Below, piece by piece: positions 14,185-50,451 of a stretch of DNA of 56,525 bases. Within the stretch, counting starts at the first letter, position 1, and every line of letters starts with the position of its first letter. Below the pieces are notes generated by a model. That model saw only the letters and a list, made by a program, of their open reading frames with translations, did not search any database and had not been told where the DNA came from. Made by a program: the position numbers and the translations under genes. This stretch comes from Chloroflexota bacterium (lineage in GTDB: Bacteria > Chloroflexota > Dehalococcoidia > SM23-28-2 > HRBIN24), in contig JAUQPQ010000003.1 of the NCBI GenBank assembly GCA_030550295.1, positions 1 to 56,525 on the forward strand. Direction: 5' to 3'.

Positions 14185-15864
14185 TTATATCGCCACGGGG
14201 GGCTGGTACTCGCCGAATATGCGGCGCATGACGCCACATATCTCGCCCAGGGTAGCGTAGGCCTGTACGGCTTCCATGATGGGCGGCATAAGGCTAGCTG
14301 AGTCGTGGCAGGCTTCCTCTAGACGCTTTAGGGCTGCCCTTACTTGGGCCTCGTCACGGTGACGGCGCACTTGCTTCAGCTTCTCCATTTGGGCCTGTTC
14401 GGCCTCCGGGTTGGTACGGAACACCATCTTGGGGCGCTCATTCTCCAGGCAGTACCGGTTCACTCCCACGATGATACGCCTTCCCTCGTCTACAGCTTTC
14501 TGGTGGGCGTAGGCTGCCTCTTGGATCTCTCTCTGCATGTAGCCCGACTCGATAGCTGCCACCGCCCCTCCCATGTCCTCGATCTTGTGCAGGTATTCCC
14601 AGGCCTTCTTCTCTAGCTGGTTGGTGAGCCACTCCACGTAGTAGGAGCCTGCCAGGGGGTCTACTGTATCGGTCACCCCTGTCTCGTAGGCGATGATCTG
14701 CTGAGTTCGCACGGCTATGCGTTGGGCCTCCTCTGTGGGGAGGGAGAGGGCCTCATCGTAACAGGAGAGGGCCAGGGACTGGACACCTCCCAGGACTGTG
14801 GCCAGGGCCTGGATAGCTGCCCGGACGATGTTTAGCTCAGGCTGTTGAGCGGTGAGGGTGGCCCCTCCCGTTTGGACATGCGTACGGAACATCCAGGAGC
14901 GGGGATCCTTAGCGTGGTAGCGCTCCCTCATGATACGGGCCCACATGCGACGCAGGGCCCGGTATTTGGCTATCTCCTCGAAGAAGTTGTTTTGAGTATT
15001 GAAAATCCAGGAGATGCGCGGGGCGAACTCGTCTATGTCTATTCCCCTCTCTAGGACGGCGTCCACATATGCTATGGCATTGGCGAAGGTGAAGGCCATC
15101 TCCTGCACAGCTGTCGCCCCGGCATCGCGGATGTGATAGCCCGATATGCTGATGGCGTTGAACTTGGGCATCTCTTTGGCGCACCAGGCGATGAGGTCGG
15201 CGGCCAGCCGCAGAGAGGGCTTAGGGGGGAATATATAGGTGCCACGCGCCACATATTCTTTCAAGATGTCGTTCTGTACCGTCCCCGATACCTGCGAGAG
15301 GGGAACCCCTTGCTTTCGGGCCACGATAGCGTACATGGCCACTATGACTGCGGCGGGGGCGTTGATGGTCATAGAAGTGCTCACCTTATCCAGAGGGATC
15401 CCGTCGAACAAGGCCTCCATGTCGGCCAACGTGTCGATGGCCACCCCCACCTTGCCCACTTCCCCTCTGGCATGTGGGTCATCGGAGTCATAGCCCAGTT
15501 GGGTAGGTAAGTCAAAGGCTACCGAGAGACCTGGCTGGCCTTCCTGAAGCAAGAACTTAAAGCGCTTGTTGGTTTCCTCGGCCGTCTCGTAGCCGGCGTA
15601 TTGGCGTATGGTCCACAGTCGGGTGCGGTACATGGTAGGGTGGATACCCCGGGTGTACGGGTATTGGCCAGGGAAGCCTATGTCTCTAAGGAAATCGATA
15701 TCGGCGATGTCCAGGGGCGTGTAGATGACCTTCGTCTCGGTGGAGCTGGTGGCGAATTCGGAGTCTTGGCGTTCCCCTCCCTTGCGCAGGGCTTCCTGGA
15801 GGATCGTCTTTTCCCACCGTTCCTGCTCCCGGCGGATGCGCTCCAGCTCTTCCTTGTCTAGCAT
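14185..15864 (-). CDS. Acyl-CoA mutase large (substrate-binding) subunit, methylmalonyl-/ethylmalonyl-CoA mutase type
   Basis: [95 protein letters not shown]; no B12-binding DxHxxG domain. Confidence 0.9.
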
Positions 15865-15873
15865 TTCATCCTC

Positions 15874-16389
15874 CTAATCTCTCACTTGAGGGAAAGAGTG
15901 GGGTATCCCCACCTCTCTCTTGGGTACCAGGACTGAGCGCCGGAAGCGCATCACTAGTTCCCCGTGCTGGTTGTAGGCTCGAGTCTCCACGCTGACGACC
16001 CCTCTATCAGGGTTAGAGCGGGATTCCCGTTTCTCTAGGACGGTGGTCTCAGAATAGATGGTGTCGCCGTGGAAGACAGGGCGCAGAAACTCGATCTTTT
16101 CAAAGCCTAGGTTGGCGATCGCCTTACCTGAGATGTCACGGACGCTTTGCCCAAGGGCTATATCCACCACCAGGTTGCCCACCACCACGTTGCGTCCGAA
16201 CTGGGTCTTCTTGCCATATTCGGCGTCTATGTGGAGGGGATGGTGGTTCATAGTAAGCATGCAGAAGAGGATGTCGTCCATATCGGTGATGGTACGTCCG
16301 GGCCAGTGCCTATAAGTGGCGCCTACCTCGAAGTCTTCGTAGTAGCGGCCAAACTCGTACGCTTCAGACATGGTATCTACCTCCATCAT
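15874..16389 (-). CDS. MaoC-family hydratase (candidate mesaconyl-CoA hydratase)
   Basis: YYEDFEVGATYRHWPGRTITDMDDILFCMLTMNHHPLHIDAEYGKKTQFG; overlaps the downstream-strand acyl-CoA dehydrogenase gene by 4 nt. Confidence 0.85.
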   Translation of the reverse strand: MMEVDTMSEAYEFGRYYEDFEVGATYRHWPGRTITDMDDILFCMLTMNHHPLHIDAEYGKKTQFGRNVVVGNLVVDIALGQSVRDISGKAIANLGFEKIEFLRPVFHGDTIYSETTVLEKRESRSNPDRGVVSVETRAYNQHGELVMRFRRSVLVPKREVGIPHSFPQVRD

Positions 16390-17558
16390 TCCCCGAACAT
16401 GCGCAGAATGTTGCGGGCGATGACTAAGCGCTGGATCTCGTTTGTGCCCTCGCCGATGAGCATAAGGGGGGTATCGCGGTAGTAGCGCTCTACTCGCATG
16501 TCCTTGGTATAGCCGATGCCGCCATGGATACGGAGGGCCTCAAGGGCCACCTCCTGCGCCACCTCTGAGGCGAAGAGTTTGGCCATGCCGCCCCACAGGT
16601 CGGCCCTCTCGCCACTGTCCTTCTTGGCGGCGGCGGCACGGGTGAGGAGGCGGGCTGCCTCTACCTTTGTGGCCATATCGGCTAGCTTGAGCTGGATAGC
16701 CTGATGCTCGGCGATGGGGCGGCCGAAGGTGACCCGCTGTTTGGCGTACCTTATGGCGTCCTCCAGGGCTGCAGTGGCCACCCCCACCGCCCGGGCCGCC
16801 ACGTTGATCCGCCCCACCTCGATGCCGCTCATGATGTGCAACCAACCCTGCCCCTCTTTCCCCCCAAGGAGATTCGCCTCTGGCACCCGGGCATCTTCGA
16901 AGTAGAATATGGTGGTGTCTATGCCTTTGTACCCCAGTTTCTGGATCTGGCCCCCTACGGTGAGGCCTGGCGTAGACTTCTTCTCTACCAACAAGGCGCT
17001 CATGCCCCTGTAGGGGGGCTCGGCTTCAGGATCGGTTTTGACGAGGACGGCGAATAGATGGCCATATATCCCGTTGGAGACGAACATCTTGGTGCCATTG
17101 AGCACATAGAAGCCATCGTGACGGCGGGCTATCGTCTGGATGGATTGGAGGTCAGAGCCGGCGTTGGGTTCCGTCATACAGATGCCGCAGTGGATTTCGC
17201 CGCTTGCTATGTGGGGCAGAAAGCGCGTCTTCTGGTCCTCGGTGCCGAACTGGCTTATCATCCATGAGACGATGACGCTGCCGTTAATGATGCCGCCCAG
17301 GCTCATCCAGCCGCGGGAAAGCTCCTCCACTATGGCTGCATAGGTTACAAGGGATAGGCCTAGGCCTCCATATTCGGGCGGCACGGCCACCCCAAAAAGG
17401 CCCATCTCTTTCATCTTGCGTACCAGCTCGTGAGGATACTCGTCCCGGTGGTCCAGATCCGAGGCGATGGGTATGACTTCTTTCTCCACGAAGCGGCGCA
17501 CCTGGGCGACGATCATTTGCTCTTCCTCTGAAAGGGTGGCCATGGTGGGCAAAGGCAT
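16386..17558 (-). CDS. Acyl-CoA dehydrogenase (candidate methylsuccinyl-CoA dehydrogenase)
   Basis: Start chosen at MPLPTMATLSEEEQMIVAQVRRFVEKEVIPIA, after AAGGAG; CMTEPNAGSDLQSI, RIHGGIGYTKDMRVERYYRDTPLMLIGEGTNEIQ. Confidence 0.9.
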   Translation of the reverse strand: MPLPTMATLSEEEQMIVAQVRRFVEKEVIPIASDLDHRDEYPHELVRKMKEMGLFGVAVPPEYGGLGLSLVTYAAIVEELSRGWMSLGGIINGSVIVSWMISQFGTEDQKTRFLPHIASGEIHCGICMTEPNAGSDLQSIQTIARRHDGFYVLNGTKMFVSNGIYGHLFAVLVKTDPEAEPPYRGMSALLVEKKSTPGLTVGGQIQKLGYKGIDTTIFYFEDARVPEANLLGGKEGQGWLHIMSGIEVGRINVAARAVGVATAALEDAIRYAKQRVTFGRPIAEHQAIQLKLADMATKVEAARLLTRAAAAKKDSGERADLWGGMAKLFASEVAQEVALEALRIHGGIGYTKDMRVERYYRDTPLMLIGEGTNEIQRLVIARNILRMFGE

Positions 17559-17592
17559 AGCTTGCTCCTTTATTAAAGTTTCTGCTGGCTCC

Positions 17593-17621
17593 AGTGTAAG
17601 GCCACGAGAGGGCCTTGACAA
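17593..17621 (-). promoter_or_regulatory. Promoter of the acyl-CoA dehydrogenase-MaoC-mutase transcription unit
   Basis: Minus strand: TTGTCA (17621-17616), 17-nt spacer, TACACT (17598-17593), then GGAG. Confidence 0.6.
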
Positions 17622-17631
17622 GGGCAGTGCC

Positions 17632-17660
17632 TTGACCCATCCCCCCTCCCCCCCTACACT
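17632..17660 (+). promoter_or_regulatory. Divergent promoter of the malyl-CoA-lyase-like gene
   Basis: TTGACC (17632-17637), 17-nt C-rich spacer, TACACT (17655-17660), then GGAG; ribosome-binding site AGGAGG before ATG 17694. Confidence 0.6.
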
Positions 17661-17693
17661 GGAGGCCGACAGCACCATATATTAGGAGGCACC

Positions 17694-23225: not shown

Positions 23226-24005
23226 CTACAACGTGGGCGTTAGTTTGGAAAAAGGCCCCCAGTCAAATAAGCTGTTGAGGTTGATGAGACTATTAGTAAA
23301 GATGAGCACTCCTACCACTACCAAAGTGGCCCCGCTCACATAATTTATCACAGGGGAGATGAGCCTAAGCCACCTATATAGGGGCAGAAGGGCATTAAAG
23401 GCTAGGCCCAGGAGTAGGAAGGGGATGGCTAGCCCCGCTGAGTAGGCCCCTAAGAGGACTGCTGCCTGCGCTACGTTAGCGCCGGATACGGCCAGGGCCA
23501 GGATGGCCCCTAGGGTAGGTCCAATACATGGGCTCCAGCCAGCGGCAAAGGAGCAGCCTACTAGAAAGGAACGTAAGTAGCCCGTTCCACCCTCTATTCC
23601 CAGCCGTTGCTCCCTTTCCAAAAAGGGAATGGTGATAACTCCAGCAAGGTGTAGCCCCAAGGCGATGAGCAAGGAGCCGGCCACCTTCTGCACTATGTCT
23701 TGGTGCTCACGCAAAAAAAAGCCGATTATCCCTAAAGATACCCCAAGGGAGACAAAGACGACGGAGAAGCCAAAGGTAAAACTGAGGGAGTGTAGGAAGG
23801 GGGCATACGCCCTTGCCTTTATCTCTGTGGGGGAGCCATGCTTTCCCCCGGTGATTGGGGTAGTGGAGGTACCAGTAAGGTAAGTCAGATAAGGTGGCAC
23901 AAGAGGTAAGAGGCATGGGGAGAGAAAGGAGAAAAGCCCTGCACCCAGCGCCACTAGCAAACTTATGCCTCCCACTTCCAATCTGGGATACCTCCTGCCG
24001 GCCAA
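23226..24005 (-). CDS. ccdA: Cytochrome c biogenesis protein CcdA (true start probably a few codons inside)
   Basis: GAGLFSFLSPCLLPLVPPYLTYLTG, GCSFAAGWSPCIGPTLGAIL, multi-TM. Confidence 0.9.
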   Translation of the reverse strand: MAGRRYPRLEVGGISLLVALGAGLFSFLSPCLLPLVPPYLTYLTGTSTTPITGGKHGSPTEIKARAYAPFLHSLSFTFGFSVVFVSLGVSLGIIGFFLREHQDIVQKVAGSLLIALGLHLAGVITIPFLEREQRLGIEGGTGYLRSFLVGCSFAAGWSPCIGPTLGAILALAVSGANVAQAAVLLGAYSAGLAIPFLLLGLAFNALLPLYRWLRLISPVINYVSGATLVVVGVLIFTNSLINLNSLFDWGPFSKLTPTL

Positions 24006-26146
24006 ATTGGCAGCTTTTTAACCAGAAGGTCTACTCGGTTTCCCCAGCGGCGCAGAAAGCGGTAGAAATTTCGTTTGCTTAACCGGTCGCGCTCGTGGGG
24101 GTCTAACCTTTCCCATTCCCAGTGGGTAGATCGGTAAGCAGGAATATCAGGGCAGCATACTGTGCGCCACCCCAGTGCCCTTACCCTGAAGGACAAGTCA
24201 AGGTCTAGGTGACGGTAGAAGCGGAATTTTTCGTCCAAGGGTGTTACTTGCTGGATGACCATCCTTGGTATGAGCATGAGATAACCTTGGAGGGCGTCCA
24301 CGTCGCAGTCCAGTTCTACCTCATAGAAGTGGCGAAGGTCGGCGGTGTAAAGGCCCCAACGGCCCATAATCCCTAGGGTTGGATCTTGGGAGAGGCGTTC
24401 CAGATAGGGTTCCAGGGGCCCAGTGAGCCTTACTGAGCTGTCCAACCACAGGAACCAGCGGCCCTTGGCTTGTCGAAGGGTCACGTTGCGGGCCATAGCC
24501 TCTCCCAGGAAGTGGTCGGCACGGAGCACCCGTACTCGAGGGTCGGTGGCGGCTAGATGTTCCAAGAAGGATACCGTCTCGTCAGTGGAGCCGTTGTCCA
24601 CCAATATGATCTCGTCGTCTTCCCTTAGCCAGGGCAAGAGGCTATCTATGCAAGGCTGGAGGTGAGGCAAGTTGTCCCGGGCCAATAGGCTCACCGTTAT
24701 GCGCTTTTGGGGTGGCTCGTGAAGAAGGGAGGGGACATCGGTGCTACGTGATATGGTGGGGAATTCTTCTTTCCACTTGGGTCTAAGAAGTATGCGAGAG
24801 GTGCGGCGCCCATCGCGCACTTCGTAGCCCCTACCCTCGATTTGGGCCCTTAGGGCGTCTGCATCGGCATATCGGCGCTGACATCGCAAACGGTCTCGAG
24901 CCCTAGCCAGAGAGGCGATATCGGCAGGAAGCTCTACTTTCTCGGGGGGACGGTCCAGGGCCAGCCCTAGCACCGAGTCAAATTCCAGTAAAAGCCTTCT
25001 TTTGGTGGAGCTGGGGAGGCTGGAGCGTGCCACCTCCCAGGCGACGGCCAATGCCCTTGGGAGGGACAGGTCATAACACACTGCCTCCCAAAACATCTTT
25101 CGGAGCTTCTCCGCTTTATCAGGGTCAGGTCGGCCCCTGCTACCAGTTTGGGTATGGAGCTGTAACCTGGAAAGGGCGCGCTGGGAGGCCCGCAGGGCCT
25201 CCCAGGTGAAGTTCATGGGATGCCTGTAGTGGACGGTGGCGCACAGGTAACGGAAGGCTAAGGGATGGAAGCCGCGGGCTTCCAGGTCGGACAGGGTGTA
25301 GACGTTGCCTGTGGACTTGGCCATCTTTAGCCCGTCGACTAAAAGGTGGGCCCCGTGAACCCAATACCGAGCGAAGGGGCTGTCGTAGGCGGCCTCGCTC
25401 TGGGCTATCTCGTCCTCATGGTGAGGGAAGATATTGTCCACTCCTCCGGTGTGGATGTCCAGGTGGGGCCCTAAGTAACGTATTGCCATGGCAGAGCACT
25501 CGATGTGCCAACCGGGGAAGCCATAGCCCCAGGGGCTGAGCCACTTGAGGAGGCGGCCTGGTTCGGCTGCCTTCCATAGGGCAAAGTCCCTAGGGTCTTC
25601 CTTTAGCGGATCGACATCGGAGCGGACTCCTGCTAAAAGCTCTGGGCCTGTCTGCCCAGAAAGCCTTCCGTAGGTGGGGAAGGCGGATACGCGAAAATAG
25701 ACGTTCCCACTGCGCTCATAGGCGTACCCTTTCTCTAGTAGCCGTTCCACCAGCCTTATCATCTCTTCCACGTGTTCTGTGGCCTTAGGATAGTAGTGGG
25801 CAGATAAGATATTGAGACGCCTTTCGTCGCGTAAGAAGGCCTCGGTGTAGAAGTGGGCGATCTCCTGTGGGGTCTTACCCTCGGCGAGGGCGGCAGCGAT
25901 AACCTTGTCATCGCCCCTTTCTAGCTGCTCTTGACGCATGTGTCCTACATCTGTGATGTTCTTGACGTGGATCACCTCGTATCCCAGGGATTCAAGCACC
26001 CTGCGCAGCCAGTCCACCATGAGATATGTGCGCAAGTTGCCGATGTGCGCATACCTGTATACAGTTGGCCCGCACGAATATAGGCGGACGCGCCCTGGTT
26101 CTAAGGGGGTAAAAGGCTCGATACGCCTGGTCAGGGTGTTGAACAG
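23963..26146 (-). CDS. cysS: Cysteine--tRNA ligase fused to C-terminal family 2 glycosyltransferase
   Basis: In-frame extension upstream of the track ORF (26035) restores LFNTLTRRIEPFTPLEPGRVRLYSCGPTVYRYAHIGNLR; plus GWHIECSAM, HTGGVDNIFPHHEDEIAQSEA, KMAKSTGN; from about 24715 downward KRITVSLLARDNLPHLQPCIDSLL..DDEIILVDNGSTDET..ARNVTLRQAKGRWFLWLDSSV is GT2. Start codon unclear (CTG at 26146 tentative). Confidence 0.88.
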   Translation of the reverse strand: MFNTLTRRIEPFTPLEPGRVRLYSCGPTVYRYAHIGNLRTYLMVDWLRRVLESLGYEVIHVKNITDVGHMRQEQLERGDDKVIAAALAEGKTPQEIAHFYTEAFLRDERRLNILSAHYYPKATEHVEEMIRLVERLLEKGYAYERSGNVYFRVSAFPTYGRLSGQTGPELLAGVRSDVDPLKEDPRDFALWKAAEPGRLLKWLSPWGYGFPGWHIECSAMAIRYLGPHLDIHTGGVDNIFPHHEDEIAQSEAAYDSPFARYWVHGAHLLVDGLKMAKSTGNVYTLSDLEARGFHPLAFRYLCATVHYRHPMNFTWEALRASQRALSRLQLHTQTGSRGRPDPDKAEKLRKMFWEAVCYDLSLPRALAVAWEVARSSLPSSTKRRLLLEFDSVLGLALDRPPEKVELPADIASLARARDRLRCQRRYADADALRAQIEGRGYEVRDGRRTSRILLRPKWKEEFPTISRSTDVPSLLHEPPQKRITVSLLARDNLPHLQPCIDSLLPWLREDDEIILVDNGSTDETVSFLEHLAATDPRVRVLRADHFLGEAMARNVTLRQAKGRWFLWLDSSVRLTGPLEPYLERLSQDPTLGIMGRWGLYTADLRHFYEVELDCDVDALQGYLMLIPRMVIQQVTPLDEKFRFYRHLDLDLSFRVRALGWRTVCCPDIPAYRSTHWEWERLDPHERDRLSKRNFYRFLRRWGNRVDLLVKKLPIWPAGGIPDWKWEA

Positions 26147-32082: not shown

Positions 32083-32102
32083 TGAGAATGTTGACATTCG
32101 CA
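32083..32102. promoter_or_regulatory. Palindromic operator-like element overlapping the -35 box of the AOR operon
   Basis: TGAGAATGT-TG-ACATTCGCA; inner arms GAATGT/ACATTC perfect. Confidence 0.5.
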
Positions 32103-32120
32103 AACCCTGGCGTGTATTTT
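32091..32120 (+). promoter_or_regulatory. Sigma-70-type promoter for the AOR operon
   Basis: TTGACA (32091-32096), 18-nt spacer, TATTTT (32115-32120). Confidence 0.5.
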
Positions 32121-32148
32121 GGGAATGCATTTGTATAAGGGGGACACC

Positions 32149-32610
32149 ATGAAGCTGATCGTGTCTCATCCTGAGAAGTGTGTAGCTTGTCACCTTTGTG
32201 AAGGGGCCTGCTCGTTGAGACATGAGGGTGCATTCGTCCCTGCCAAGACCAGGATCTGGGTACTGGACCTGGTAGACGAGCAGGTATACGGGGCGTTCAC
32301 ATGCTTCCACTGCCCTGATGCTCCTTGTCTCACCAATTGTCCTACCTATGCCATAAGCCGCGATCCGGAAACGGGCCGCGTGTACGTTAGGGAGGAAAAG
32401 TGTATCGGCTGTAAGATGTGCCTCGTGGCTTGCCCCTTTGGGGTGATGGGCTATCACTTGGACAAGCATGTAGCGCAGAACTGCGACTTGTGCGAGGGCG
32501 ATCCCCAATGCGTGAAAATATGCATCTACGGGGCCCTAGAATACGCAGATAAAGAGCCCTTGCCCTGGGCGACGCGCATGGAAAGGGCTGAGAGCGGGAT
32601 CTTGGTATGA
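32149..32610 (+). CDS. Polyferredoxin subunit (AorA-like), four 4-Cys motifs
   Basis: MKLIVSHPEKC; CVACHLCEGAC, CFHCPDAPCLTNC, CIGCKMCLVAC, CDLCEGDPQCVKIC: 16 Cys, suggesting four [4Fe-4S]. Confidence 0.92.
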   Translation: MKLIVSHPEKCVACHLCEGACSLRHEGAFVPAKTRIWVLDLVDEQVYGAFTCFHCPDAPCLTNCPTYAISRDPETGRVYVREEKCIGCKMCLVACPFGVMGYHLDKHVAQNCDLCEGDPQCVKICIYGALEYADKEPLPWATRMERAESGILV

Positions 32611-32621
32611 AGGAGGGCGGC

Positions 32622-34445
32622 ATGACGTCCGGATGGGCAGGTCAGGTGCTAAGGGTTAACCTCACCCGGGGGGAGATCACTAAAGAGCCCCTGCGCATGG
32701 ACTGGGCCAGGGCCTACATTGGCGGTAGGGGACTAGGTACGAAATACCTGTACGAAGAGATAGATCCTAGGTGCGATCCCTTAGGCCCCTCAAACAAGGT
32801 CATCTTCGCCACGGGGCCCCTTACGGGCACTTACGCCCCCACTGGAGGCCGCTATATGGTTCTGTGTAAGAGCCCCCTTACCGATGCCATCGCCTGCTCC
32901 AATTCGGGTGGCTACTGGGGGCCTGAGCTGAAGTTCGCTGGTTACGACATGGTCATCTTAGAGGGCCAGTCGCCTCGCCCCGTGTACATTTGGATCCACA
33001 ACGATCACGTCGAGATAAGGGACGCCTCTCACGTCTGGGGTAAGACCACTGCCGAAACGGAGGACATCTTACGCGCTGAGACCGACCCACAGGCGCGGGT
33101 GGCAGGAATCGGCCCGGCTGGAGAAAACATGTGCCGTGTGGCCTGCGTCATAAACGACAAATCTCGGGCTGCTGGACGCTCTGGGGTGGGCGCGGCCATG
33201 GGGGCGAAACGGGTGAAGGCCATCGTGGTGAGGGGCACGGGGGCGGTACGGGTGGCTGACCCTGTCCGCTTTTCTCAGGTGGTGATGGACTCCCTCCAGA
33301 TAGTAGCCCAATCGCCAGTGACGTCGGCGGCATTAAGGGGTCTAGGCACTGCCTCCACGGTTGGTTTCACTAATGCCGTGGGGATCTTGCCTACGCGCAA
33401 CTTCCAGCAGGGGCAGTTTGAGGGTGCAAACGCTATCTCCGGTCAGGCCATCGCCCAGTCGGTGCTGGTGCGTAATAAGGGGTGCTACTCCTGCCCAATA
33501 GGATGTGCCAGGGTTACTGAGATCAAAGGCCCTTCCAAATGGCAGGGGAAGGGAGAAGGCCCCGAATACGAGACGATCTTTGGCGTGGGCAGCGACTGTG
33601 GAGTAGGCGACCTCAACGCCATCCTTTACGCCAACTACCTCTGTAACCTCTACGCCGTAGACACCATCTCCGCCGGTGCCACCATCGCTACGGCCATGGA
33701 GCTGGCGGAGAAAGGCTACATCCCCGAGGAGGACCTGGCCGAGTTGCCCTTCGAGCTAAAGTTTGGCAACGCCGATGCCGTGATAGGCTGCCTAGAGCTA
33801 ATGGCATACAGGCGGGGCAAGTTTGGCAACCTTTTGGCCGAGGGAGGATATCGTCTGGCCGAGTACTATGGCCACCCCGAGCTCTTCATGGGCGTAAAGA
33901 AGCAAGAGTTTGCCGCTTATGACCCCAGGGGAGCCAAAGGCATGGGCCTCGGCTACGCTACGTCCAACCGGGGCGCCTGTCACCTAAGAGGCTATTCTAT
34001 GAGCGTCGAGTGGTTTGCTCCCCCCGATCAGCGTCTTGACCCCTTCAGCATCGAGGGGAAGGCAGCTGTTCAGAAGATGTTGCAGGACGCCGCCGCTAGT
34101 GTCGACTCTAGCGGCGTTTGTACCTTCGTCACCTTTGCCCTGACGCCCGACAAGATCTGCGCCCTCTACAACGCCGCCACTGGGGAGACCCTTACCTTAG
34201 AAGACTGGGCCCTCACCGGCGAACGCATCTGGAACATAGAGCGCCTGTTCAACATAGGTGCTGGGCTGGGGCGAAAGGACGACACCCTGCCTCCCAGGAT
34301 GCTGAACGAGCCTTTGACGGGTGGTGCCGTCCCGGGGCAAGTGGTAGAGCTGGAACCTATGCTAGAAGAGTACTATCGCCTACGGGGCTGGGACGAGGAG
34401 GGTCGCCCTACCCAGGAGACTTTGGCCCGATTGGGCCTAGCGTAG
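32622..34445 (+). CDS. Tungsten/molybdopterin aldehyde:ferredoxin oxidoreductase (AorB-like)
   Basis: GWAGQVLRVNLTRGEITKEPL, YIGGRGLGTKYLYEEIDPRCDPL, FATGPLTGTYAPTGGRYMV, GCYSCPIGCARV, DSSGVCTF. Confidence 0.95.
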   Translation: MTSGWAGQVLRVNLTRGEITKEPLRMDWARAYIGGRGLGTKYLYEEIDPRCDPLGPSNKVIFATGPLTGTYAPTGGRYMVLCKSPLTDAIACSNSGGYWGPELKFAGYDMVILEGQSPRPVYIWIHNDHVEIRDASHVWGKTTAETEDILRAETDPQARVAGIGPAGENMCRVACVINDKSRAAGRSGVGAAMGAKRVKAIVVRGTGAVRVADPVRFSQVVMDSLQIVAQSPVTSAALRGLGTASTVGFTNAVGILPTRNFQQGQFEGANAISGQAIAQSVLVRNKGCYSCPIGCARVTEIKGPSKWQGKGEGPEYETIFGVGSDCGVGDLNAILYANYLCNLYAVDTISAGATIATAMELAEKGYIPEEDLAELPFELKFGNADAVIGCLELMAYRRGKFGNLLAEGGYRLAEYYGHPELFMGVKKQEFAAYDPRGAKGMGLGYATSNRGACHLRGYSMSVEWFAPPDQRLDPFSIEGKAAVQKMLQDAAASVDSSGVCTFVTFALTPDKICALYNAATGETLTLEDWALTGERIWNIERLFNIGAGLGRKDDTLPPRMLNEPLTGGAVPGQVVELEPMLEEYYRLRGWDEEGRPTQETLARLGLA

Positions 34446-34455
34446 GAGGTAAGAG

Positions 34456-35730
34456 GTGGCCAGGTACGTCATCTTGGGAGCTTCTGCCGCAGGCCTTGCG
34501 GCCTTAGAGGCCATCAGGGAACGGGATCCGGACGGGGAGATTGTGATGGTCTCTAAGGAGCCCCCGCCATGTTATTCGCGGGTGGCCCTTCCCTACTTAT
34601 TGGCCGGGGAAAAGAACTTGGGCCAAATCACCCTCCGGGCAGACGACTACTTCCGGGCCAAGAGGGTGGAAACGATCTGGGGCAAAGGGGCTGTAGCGCT
34701 GGATGCTCAGGCCCGACAGGTTAGGCTAGAAGATGGCCAGAATCTCCCCTATGACAAGCTACTTATCGCTACTGGCTCTCGACCACGCATCCCCCCCATC
34801 CAGGGCATCGAGGAAGCTGACGTATGCTACCACTGGACCTTGGCCGATGCCCGCAAGATCGAGGAAAAGGCGCAAAAGGCGCGGGACTGCTTCGTCATCG
34901 GTGCTGGCTTTATAAGCCTGCTCACCATCAACGCCCTCGTCAAGAGATCATCCCTTAAGTTCACCGTGGTAGAGGTGGCGGGACGGGTGATGCCCCAGCT
35001 CTTGGACCAGGGCGGCGCTAGCCTCCTAGAGGAGGTGATGCGGCGCCAGGGCATAGAGCTTCTCCTAAACGACACTGCCGCCTCGGTGGAACGAAGGGGA
35101 GATGGACGCTACAGCATACGATTGTCCAGCGGTAGGACGTACGAAGCAGATATAGTCATCTGCGGCACAGGGGTGGAGCCAAACATCGAGTTCCTCCGAG
35201 GATCAAACCTAGACATAGGACGCGGGATACGTACGAGTGAACGCCAGGAGACTAATTTGCCTGGGGTCTACGCCGCAGGCGACTGCGCTGAGACGCGTGA
35301 CTTCCAGACAGGGGCACCCGTCATCCACGCCATCTGGCCCACAGCTGTGGAGCAGGGGCAAGTAGCAGGGGCCAACATGGCAGGCGACAACCTTTCATAC
35401 CCAGGGAGCCTCAGCTGGAACGTGACGGAGCTGTTCGGCCTCACCTGTGCGTCCATTGGGGAGTTCCAAGAGAGGCCGGGCCTAGAGCCCATCGTCATGG
35501 AGGACCGGGCAGTGGGCCTGTATCGGAAGATCTTGCTGGATAGCGAGGGGAAGGCGGCAGGGGTCGTGCTGGTGGGCCGCCCCAGCGATGCTCAGGAGTT
35601 GGGGGTTTTGCAGGCAGCGATCCGCAGAGGAACCAAACTAGCGCGCTGGAAGGATCACCTGGCCCACGATCGTGCTGCCTTTGGGCTGATCGCGTTCGAT
35701 GCCCTGCGGGCGGGGCTAGCTAAGCGGTAG
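34456..35730 (+). CDS. NAD(P)/FAD-dependent oxidoreductase (AorC-like; nitrite-reductase/rubredoxin-reductase type)
   Basis: YVILGASAAGLAALEAIRERDPDGEIVMVSKEPPPCYSRVALPYLLAGE, LLIATGSRPRIPPIQGIEEA, GVYAAGDCAET. Confidence 0.9.
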   Translation: MARYVILGASAAGLAALEAIRERDPDGEIVMVSKEPPPCYSRVALPYLLAGEKNLGQITLRADDYFRAKRVETIWGKGAVALDAQARQVRLEDGQNLPYDKLLIATGSRPRIPPIQGIEEADVCYHWTLADARKIEEKAQKARDCFVIGAGFISLLTINALVKRSSLKFTVVEVAGRVMPQLLDQGGASLLEEVMRRQGIELLLNDTAASVERRGDGRYSIRLSSGRTYEADIVICGTGVEPNIEFLRGSNLDIGRGIRTSERQETNLPGVYAAGDCAETRDFQTGAPVIHAIWPTAVEQGQVAGANMAGDNLSYPGSLSWNVTELFGLTCASIGEFQERPGLEPIVMEDRAVGLYRKILLDSEGKAAGVVLVGRPSDAQELGVLQAAIRRGTKLARWKDHLAHDRAAFGLIAFDALRAGLAKR

Positions 35731-35732
35731 CC

Positions 35733-35975
35733 ATGAAGGTGACGATAGAGCTGCAGGCCTATCTAGACCGATATTCGCCCGTAGGTGACCCCCACTTCCA
35801 GGTGGATTTACCCAACGGCGCCACTGTAGAAGGCCTCTTGCGCCACCTGGGCATTCCAGATGATATGGCCCAGGTGATCATCGTTAACAACCAGAACGTA
35901 GGCTTCGAGCATCCCCTAAAAGAGGGGGATCACGTTATCCTGATACCGCCCCTGGCAGGCGGTGGCCAAGGCTAG
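35733..35975 (+). CDS. MoaD/ThiS-family sulfur-carrier-like protein with extended C-terminus
   Basis: LPNGATVEGLLRHLGIPDD...VNNQNVGFEHPLKEGDHVILIPPLAGGGQG. Confidence 0.85.
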   Translation: MKVTIELQAYLDRYSPVGDPHFQVDLPNGATVEGLLRHLGIPDDMAQVIIVNNQNVGFEHPLKEGDHVILIPPLAGGGQG

Positions 35976-36280
35976 CGCACCAGGTAAATATCGCCCCCCT
36001 CCACCTTCAGGGTGTAGGTGGGTATAGGGCGCGATGGAGGAGGGGCTGCAACTTCCCCAGTCTTTACGTTGAACTGGCCACGGTGCCATGGGCACTCCAC
36101 CACCTCACCTTTCAATTCCCCCTCTGCTAATGGCCCTCCCCGGTGGGTACACTTGTTGGCGAAGGCGAAGAATTGCCCTCCTATGTTTGCCACAACCACC
36201 TCTTCCCCCTCAACCTCCACCAGCTTCATTTCGCCCGGAGGGATTTCCGCTGTGGAGGCTATCTTGATCTCTTGGGCCAT
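35972..36280 (-). CDS. Rieske [2Fe-2S] ferredoxin-type protein
   Basis: CTHRGGPLAEGELKGEVVECPWHRGQFNVKTGEVAAPP. Confidence 0.95.
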   Translation of the reverse strand: MAQEIKIASTAEIPPGEMKLVEVEGEEVVVANIGGQFFAFANKCTHRGGPLAEGELKGEVVECPWHRGQFNVKTGEVAAPPPSRPIPTYTLKVEGGDIYLVR

Positions 36281-37646: not shown

Positions 37647-39284
<1,638 letters not shown>

Positions 39285-39288
<4 letters not shown>

Positions 39289-40601
39289 GTTCCATCGCTA
39301 TCCGTGGCGGCCACATCCTGGATCCCTCTCAGGGTCTGGACATCGTGGCTGATCTCCTAATCGTCGAAGGGCGCATCGCCGCTGTCGGGCCTGATGCGGG
39401 TGCCGATGTTCGTGAGGTCATCGACGCCTCGGGCCTTCTGGTGCTGCCCGGGCTGGTAGACATCCACTGTCACTTACGAGAGCCAGGCCTGGAACATAAA
39501 GAGACCATTGAGACAGGCGCTTTGGCTGCCGTGCGCGGAGGTTTCACCACCGTCTGCTGTATGCCCAATACTGAGCCTCCATTGGACAGTGCCCCAACAA
39601 TTAGGTGGCTACAGGGGAGGGTCTCCCAAGTGGGGCTAGTGCGCGTTTTGCCCATCGCCTGCGTAACAAGGGGACGACGCGGAAAAGAACTTGCAGACCT
39701 GATCGAGCTGGCCGAGGCAGGGGCTGTGGCCTTCAGCGACGATGGTGAGCCAGTGGCCGAGCCACAACTTTTGCGTCTTGCCCTCCAATATGCCTCGGTC
39801 CTTGGCCTTCCCATCGTCGAGCACTGTGAGGATAAGTCCCTCAGCGCTGGCGGCGTCATGCACGAGGGGTGGGTAGCAACCCGCTTAGGCCTAAAAGGGA
39901 TCCCCCCAGCTGCCGAAGAGGCAGCTGTCGCCCGCGCCATCGCCCTGTGTGCAGAAACGGGAGGCCGTTTGCACCTTGCCCACATCAGCACGGCCGGCTC
40001 TGTGGGCTGGTTACGGTTGGCCAAGGCTCAAGGGATCCCCATAAGCGCCGAGGTTACCCCCCACCACCTCTGCCTCACTCACGAAATCATCATGGGCGAG
40101 GGAGGGGTTCCTGGTGGACTCCTCTACGATACCAATGCCAAGGTAAACCCTCCCCTACGCCCTCGTGCCGATGCTGACGCCTGCGTAGCAGCCTTGGCTG
40201 AGGGCGCCATAGACTGTATAGCTACCGACCATGCCCCACACTCAGTCGAGGAGAAGCTGTGCGAGTTCGATTTGGCTGCCTTTGGCATCTCCAGCCTGGA
40301 GACGGCTTTGGCCCTTTGCCTCTCGCTAGTACATCAGGGCCGTGTGTCCCTTGGGCGGCTGATAGAGGCTATGACTATAGGGCCAGTGCGGGCGCTAGGG
40401 CTTCACCGCCATGTGCCCGGACTAGGTACGCTGGCGGTGGGTGCACCAGGGGACGTAACCATCGTCGACCCTGAGAGGGAGTGGAGGGTTGAGCCGGACT
40501 GTTTCGCAAGTAAGGGGAAGAATACCCCCCTGGCTGGGCGTACCTTGCGGGGGAAGGTGGTGTGCACCATATACGGTGGCAAGGTGGTATGGAAAGAATG
40601 A
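39285..40601 (+). CDS. pyrC: Dihydroorotase
   Basis: GLVDIHCHLREPGLEHKETIETG, FTTVCCMPNTEPPLD, CIATDHAPHS. Confidence 0.97.
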
Positions 40602-49527: not shown

Positions 49528-50451
49528 GTGAACATAGCGGTAGAGATTGGGGGCCGGGGCAAAAGGGGGCTTTTGCTTTCCAACCCCGTTATGGTGGCCT
49601 CGGGCTGTTTTGGCAACGGGATTGAGTTCCGCCGCCTCTTCGATATAGACAGGCTTGGGGCTATCGTTAGTAAAGGGATTACCCTTAGGCCTCGTCAAGG
49701 CAACCCGCAGCCCCGCTTAGTGGAGACGCCGGCTGGCCTTATCAACTCCATAGGGCTCCAGAACATTGGCGTGGGGAGGGTAATTAAGGAGCTGGCACCC
49801 ATCTGGGCCACATGGCGAGTGCCGGTGGTAGCCAATATCGCTGGCGAGAGCGTCGAAGAGTACGCCTCTTTAGCGGCGCAGCTGGACGGTACGCCTGGGG
49901 TGAGCGCCCTAGAGCTAAATATCAGCTGCCCCAATGTGGAGAATGGCCTAGAATTCGCCTGTCATCCGCCCTTGGCGGCAGAGGTAACGGCAGCAGTGCG
50001 ACGTTGCACTGCCCTGCCGGTCATCGTCAAGCTCAGCCCGGTAGCACCTAACTTGGTGGCGGTAGCCCAGGCAGTGGTGGAAGCAGGAGCTGACGCCCTC
50101 ACCATCGCCAATACGTACCCTGCCTTGGCTATCGATATCTGGAGCGCTCGCCCGGTGCCAAGTTTCGGTGGGGGGCTTTCGGGCCCTGCCATCAAGCCCC
50201 TGACTCTGAGGCTAGTGTCTGAGGTAGCTAGAGAGCAACTAGGAGTGCCTATCATAGGGTGTGGCGGTATCTCCACCTGGCAGGACGCTGTGGAATATCT
50301 GATGGCCGGGGCCAGTGCTGTGCAGGTGGGTACCATTACTTTCCGCAACCCTAGAGCACCGTTGGAAGTGTTGGAAGGGCTAGAAAGCTTCTTGCAGCAG
50401 CAGGGGATAGAAGACCTGTCCCAGATAGTTGGGGCTGCCCTAGGGTCATAA
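49528..50451 (+). CDS. pyrD: Dihydroorotate dehydrogenase (type 1B, pairs with pyrK)
   Basis: LSNPVMVASGCFGNG, SKGITLRPRQGNPQPRLVETPAGLINSIGLQN, ELNISCPNVENG, GCGGISTWQDAVEYLMAGASAVQVGT. Confidence 0.95.
   Translation: MNIAVEIGGRGKRGLLLSNPVMVASGCFGNGIEFRRLFDIDRLGAIVSKGITLRPRQGNPQPRLVETPAGLINSIGLQNIGVGRVIKELAPIWATWRVPVVANIAGESVEEYASLAAQLDGTPGVSALELNISCPNVENGLEFACHPPLAAEVTAAVRRCTALPVIVKLSPVAPNLVAVAQAVVEAGADALTIANTYPALAIDIWSARPVPSFGGGLSGPAIKPLTLRLVSEVAREQLGVPIIGCGGISTWQDAVEYLMAGASAVQVGTITFRNPRAPLEVLEGLESFLQQQGIEDLSQIVGAALGS

Follow-up and report, generated by a model that had tools for sequence, protein, structure and literature searches.

Tungsten oxidoreductases (WORs) that combine an aldehyde oxidoreductase (AOR) large subunit with an iron-sulfur small subunit and a FAD-containing pyridine nucleotide oxidoreductase (WorLSN) constitute Class III. 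One member of this class has been characterized, AorABC of Aromatoleum aromaticum (PDB 8c0z) (PMC6365974, PMC10413684). Cutting Aromatoleum AorA after D137 abolishes its oligomers, and in the structure of the complex M42 of AorC is close to FAD and FS4, while R179 of AorC is placed for the phosphates of NAD (PMC10413684). Class III enzymes fall, together with those of Classes I and IV, in WOR clade 87, and an additional MoaD-like gene (WorX) occurs in other WOR operons (PMC13328260). Our search of the literature on AOR in Dehalococcoidia or HRBIN24 found nothing specific.

We analyzed a 56,525-nucleotide stretch of DNA from a Chloroflexota bacterium (the window) that contains an AOR operon made up of four intact, tightly spaced plus-strand genes in the ORF listing (Table 1). 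To judge from its sequence, the operon very probably specifies a tungsten oxidoreductase of Class III (WorSLN plus a WorX-like gene) that would act as an NAD-reducing aldehyde oxidoreductase. A preliminary description had recognized a 16-Cys polyferredoxin, an AOR large subunit, a FAD/NAD oxidoreductase, and a MoaD-like protein in tight order and had likened the layout to that of AorABC; ORFs, Pfam domains, and synteny agree with the former, and composition and gene order (A-B-C-MoaD) with the latter. Aromatoleum has both aorD and aorE, whereas the operon in the window has one MoaD-like gene. The WorL-like subunit, AorB, contains the N- and C-terminal AFOR domains (AFOR_N, 1.8e-85; AFOR_C, 6.5e-142) and the cofactor residues. 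Encoded beside it is the WorS-like subunit, AorA, with 4Fe-4S dicluster domains and, in the alignment, exactly 16 Cys in four groups. The polyferredoxin of the preliminary description is a single subunit with two domains and four clusters; Aromatoleum AorA also has four clusters. The WorN-like gene, encoding a Pyr_redox_2 protein (PF07992, 3.6e-50), accompanies both with conserved synteny, and the MoaD-like protein matches ThiS (9.2e-11).

Table 1. Features of the AOR operon, in window coordinates
Feature	Position	Strand	Remarks
Sigma-70-like promoter match	32091..32120	+	TTGACA-18-TATTTT, 10/12; upstream of AorA gene
AorA / WorS-like small subunit	32149..32610	+	153 aa, 16 Cys, four [4Fe-4S] sites predicted
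AorB / WorL-like tungsten aldehyde oxidoreductase large subunit	32607..34445	+	612 aa
AorC / WorN-like FAD- and NAD-binding oxidoreductase subunit	34456..35730	+	424 aa
AorD / WorX-like MoaD/ThiS-family protein	35733..35975	+	80 aa, C-terminal AGGGQG

The genes for AorA and AorB overlap by 4 bases, and 10 and 2 bases separate AorB from AorC and AorC from the MoaD-like gene, respectively. Alignment of homologs placed the start of AorA at its ATG in an ORF that reaches back to a TTG at 32119; the start given previously, 32083, lies upstream of both. For AorB, homologs favor an ATG at 32622, which would yield a protein of 607 aa. To the left of the AorA gene is a divergent alpha/beta hydrolase gene, and on the right a Rieske ferredoxin gene (35972-36280, minus strand) converges on the stop of the MoaD-like gene. 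The operon therefore consists of exactly four genes. The sigma-70-like match is well placed relative to the AorA gene, but it is no evidence by itself, because such sites are no commoner in the region than chance predicts (2 found versus 1.8 expected).

We found close orthologs (at least 70% identity) in one genome of the same genus (G001), in two of the same family (G002 and G003), and in five more of the same order (G007, G014, G015, G020, and G024); the remaining genomes of the order contain distant AORs only, or none. Bacterium HR24 (HRbin24), a public record from the same family, also has the operon, with an AorB 86% identical to that of the window. Every relative keeps the A-B-C-MoaD order unless a contig end truncates its locus. 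A chance arrangement is excluded, since gene set and order persist among same-order relatives at 50 to 87% identity per subunit. All four genes also occur in a genome from another order of the class (G031, locus L044), at identities of 40% (AorA), 52% (AorB), 36% (AorC), and 36% (MoaD). The genome search identified a single AOR in the window's own genome; AOR-rich genomes of the same class (G031, G032, G045, G048, and G051) have 16 to 24 matches each. At one same-order locus (L042 6797-10277, in G014), the AorB and AorC genes each appear as two ORFs, because of either decay or assembly error.

Except at loci truncated by a contig end, the relatives' operon adjoins counterparts of the window genes at 37677-40601, whose translations suggest pyrimidine genes (pyrR-, pyrB-, and pyrC-like); a dihydroorotate dehydrogenase at 49528 was confirmed. 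The wider window encodes acyl-CoA dehydrogenases, thiolases, CoA transferases, a methylmalonyl-CoA mutase-type subunit, and MaoC-type hydratases, and the operon had been linked to this surrounding acyl-CoA metabolism. No conserved synteny bears out that link. Only the sister genome has a counterpart of the enoyl-CoA hydratase gene that lies shortly downstream of the operon, so the association is one of proximity, and what the operon keeps beside it in relatives is the pyrimidine genes instead. Elsewhere in the window, genes for the methylmalonyl-CoA mutase-type subunit, a MaoC-type hydratase, and an acyl-CoA dehydrogenase lie in a row (14185-17678, minus strand). A 690-aa minus-strand ORF (23963-26035) joins a cysteinyl-tRNA-synthetase-type catalytic domain (residues 2-285) to a family 2 glycosyltransferase domain (residues 458-573). 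This ORF is conserved in relatives (loci L036, L039, L041, L042, and L043), adjoins DsbD-like and redoxin genes, and looks like a conserved fusion.

Among solved structures, AorB matched the Acetomicrobium large subunit 9mqx_D best (712 bits), followed by 1aor (632 bits), Aromatoleum AorB (8c0z_A, 622 bits), and 9g7j (605 bits). We compared AorB with the 19 positions named for 8c0z in PMC10413684, which cover the tungsten cofactor, FS0, the proposed acid-base residues, and the aromatic pocket. Seventeen are identical: the cofactor and catalytic positions R75, N92, G94, R181, A182, E331, D361, Y443, H464, and D504; the FS0 cysteines C295, C298, C302, and C509; and Y468, F511, and F514 of the aromatic pocket. 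The other two, both cofactor contacts, are substituted (I508V and V510T). This degree of conservation suggests that AorB would function as a tungsten-type AOR and accept a broad range of aldehydes, possibly including aromatic ones.

In a large-subunit tree of 105 rows, in which sequences of PDB entries were taken from HMMER alignments and lack a few end residues, Aromatoleum-type AorB formed one clade (25 rows; SH-aLRT, 97). The window's order fell in another clade (17 rows; SH-aLRT, 96), which also contains Class I enzymes from Anaerolineaceae, among others, and which then joined a Class I/IV group (93). Membership of the large subunit in the Aromatoleum AorB clade, on which the preliminary description had staked the comparison, is thus not recovered in the best tree, but a tree forcing the two Class III groups together, 33 log-likelihood units worse, is not rejected (AU p, 0.09). 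Joining being disfavored, the AOR of the window appears to belong to a lineage separate from Aromatoleum AorB and conserved in its order. The starred branches require the Class III label to change at least 10 times, and some of these changes are artifacts of loci near contig ends, where cut-off A or C genes may make class labels wrong; Class III therefore appears not to be one lineage. By bracketing only, with 1aor, 8c0z, and 9mqx around AorB and 9q1t (WOR83) outside, AorB would be placed in WOR clade 87. AOR clusters on Azospirillum plasmids (L032, L033, and L034) resemble the operon in having small and large AOR subunits (large subunit, 52 to 54% identity) and a MoaD-like gene. They differ in that AorC is missing and complex I-like and nickel-hydrogenase-like genes come next, with hypA nearby; these clusters possibly encode an aldehyde-linked membrane hydrogenase complex.

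In sequence comparisons with the PDB, AorC came closest to Aromatoleum AorC (8c0z_E, 231 bits; runner-up, 164 bits), and AorA to Aromatoleum AorA (119 bits; 9mqx_E, 113 bits). Together these matches make NAD, as previously proposed, the best inference for the electron acceptor. AorC also keeps R41 of the Aromatoleum protein and carries a Glu after the second Rossmann strand, which usually indicates NAD rather than NADP. Alternatively, the AOR might be linked to ferredoxin or another acceptor, and AorC, for instance as a PadH-like module, might act with some other partner or in another reaction. Phenylglyoxylate dehydrogenase does contain homologous FAD/NAD and polyferredoxin modules, PadH and PadI, and profile searches scored AorC at 314 bits against PadH and AorA at 89 bits against PadI. 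Moreover, AorC carries V and Q in place of M42 and R179 of the Aromatoleum protein. In the AorC tree, sequences of the window's order group in one strong clade (100/100), but the tree does not set AorC apart from PadH or place this clade firmly relative to Aromatoleum AorC: the joint branch has a support of 43, and the AU p for all AorC as one clade is 0.38. However, the score of AorC is below the curated PadH cutoff of 475 bits, which two PadH proteins of Aromatoleum toluclasticum exceed at 583 and 742 bits. Further, no 2-oxoacid oxidoreductase subunits are found among the Pfam domains of the neighbors, and AorC lies within the AOR operon in every relative with a locus uncut by a contig end. 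A phenylglyoxylate dehydrogenase was rejected on the first two of these grounds, and we regard a separate role for AorC as improbable. An electron-bifurcating Class IV enzyme like AmWOR1 of Acetomicrobium mobile (9mqx) is less probable by far, even though AmWOR1 provides both the closest solved large subunit and, by Foldseek, the closest small-subunit fold. Where AmWOR1 has the WorABC bifurcation module, the operon has AorC. WorABC subunits were not found with the operon, the NuoF-like motif searched for (GGAGFP) is absent from the 10 kb around it, a convergent gene bounds it, and the 105-row tree puts AorB outside the Class IV group; the missing motif and the convergent gene led us to reject this candidate.

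A stronger form of the NAD-reducing AOR explanation is that the complex forms enzyme-decorated filaments, a nanowire of the Aromatoleum AorABC type in which AorA subunits stack via their C-terminal helix and one AorC caps the chain. The subunit set is the same, and the confident AlphaFold model of AorA (pLDDT, 93) is closest in fold to 9mqx_E/G and 8c0z_C, the small subunits of both nanowire-type enzymes, as well as to the WOR5 small subunit. The model also predicts a short C-terminal helix (residues 140-148), and the AorA tail is conserved in the window and its order as E[PS]xxWxxR[LM]. This tail is about 4 residues shorter than, and unlike, that of Aromatoleum and its near relatives (WTG[LI]xxMxxWAxK), a conserved, filament-mediating stretch of about 20 residues that the Aromatoleum oligomers need. 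In addition, tails of similar length occur on Class II and Class IV small subunits, so that a tail alone predicts no filament. The earlier suggestion that the complex is possibly filamentous therefore loses its known determinant, which is not conserved in sequence here; filaments are possible only, and we hold the full nanowire arrangement to be a serious possibility that falls somewhat short of an even chance. The tail and the tree together also allow a more tentative scenario, toward which we are rather skeptical: the three-subunit NAD-reducing AOR may have arisen more than once, a large subunit of another lineage having joined an AorA/AorC (PadH-type) NAD module in this order independently of the Aromatoleum lineage. 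The distinct AorA tail would then reflect a different filament interface or none.

The C terminus of the MoaD-like protein differs among relatives, reading AGGQ in two genomes of the same family (L037 and L038) and AGG in most others. In the window's protein the usual Gly-Gly is not terminal, so trimming to a terminal Gly-Gly may be needed. A MoaD-family gene also lies beside MoaE elsewhere in the genome (C39), which makes the MoaD-like gene of the operon an additional copy. We tested the content of the genome, which is 96% complete, by single-family searches. These searches found MoeA, MoaA, MoaE, and a ModABC transporter, of which ModA (TIGR01256, 160 bits) and ModB (TIGR02141, 224 bits) score above cutoff; neither TupA nor WtpA was found. 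The one TupA candidate, the only PBP_like_2 protein above cutoff, turned out to be PstS. As for the tungsten or molybdenum uptake genes on which the preliminary description had also staked its reading, ModABC was thus found and a dedicated tungstate transporter was not, and the metal route is therefore not specific. Six molybdopterin-oxidoreductase matches and one MoCoBD match point to other Mo/W enzymes in the genome; ModABC and the Moco genes are therefore not specific evidence for the AOR. A genome of the same family (G002) encodes a TupA-like tungstate-binding protein (231 bits, below the 400-bit cutoff) with permease and ATPase genes, adjoining an alcohol dehydrogenase gene (L151, G002:C26).

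For the NAD-reducing AOR that we favor, AorB would oxidize aldehydes to carboxylic acids at its tungsten bis-pyranopterin site. The electrons would leave by way of the [4Fe-4S] cluster of AorB and run along the four such clusters in AorA to reach FAD in AorC, which would reduce NAD+. The MoaD-like protein probably helps to make or load the tungsten cofactor, and ModABC would bring in the metal. The metal, the substrate, the acceptor, and the stoichiometry of the complex are what we infer in this scheme. By default, its role is likely the detoxification of aldehydes or their use and assimilation.

This kind of system is already known from Aromatoleum, and the operon of the window is an ordinary further member. 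As a second, distant lineage, it would test whether NAD coupling and filaments are class-wide or special to Aromatoleum, and it would provide another NAD-linked tungsten enzyme, a type also able to reduce carboxylic acids.
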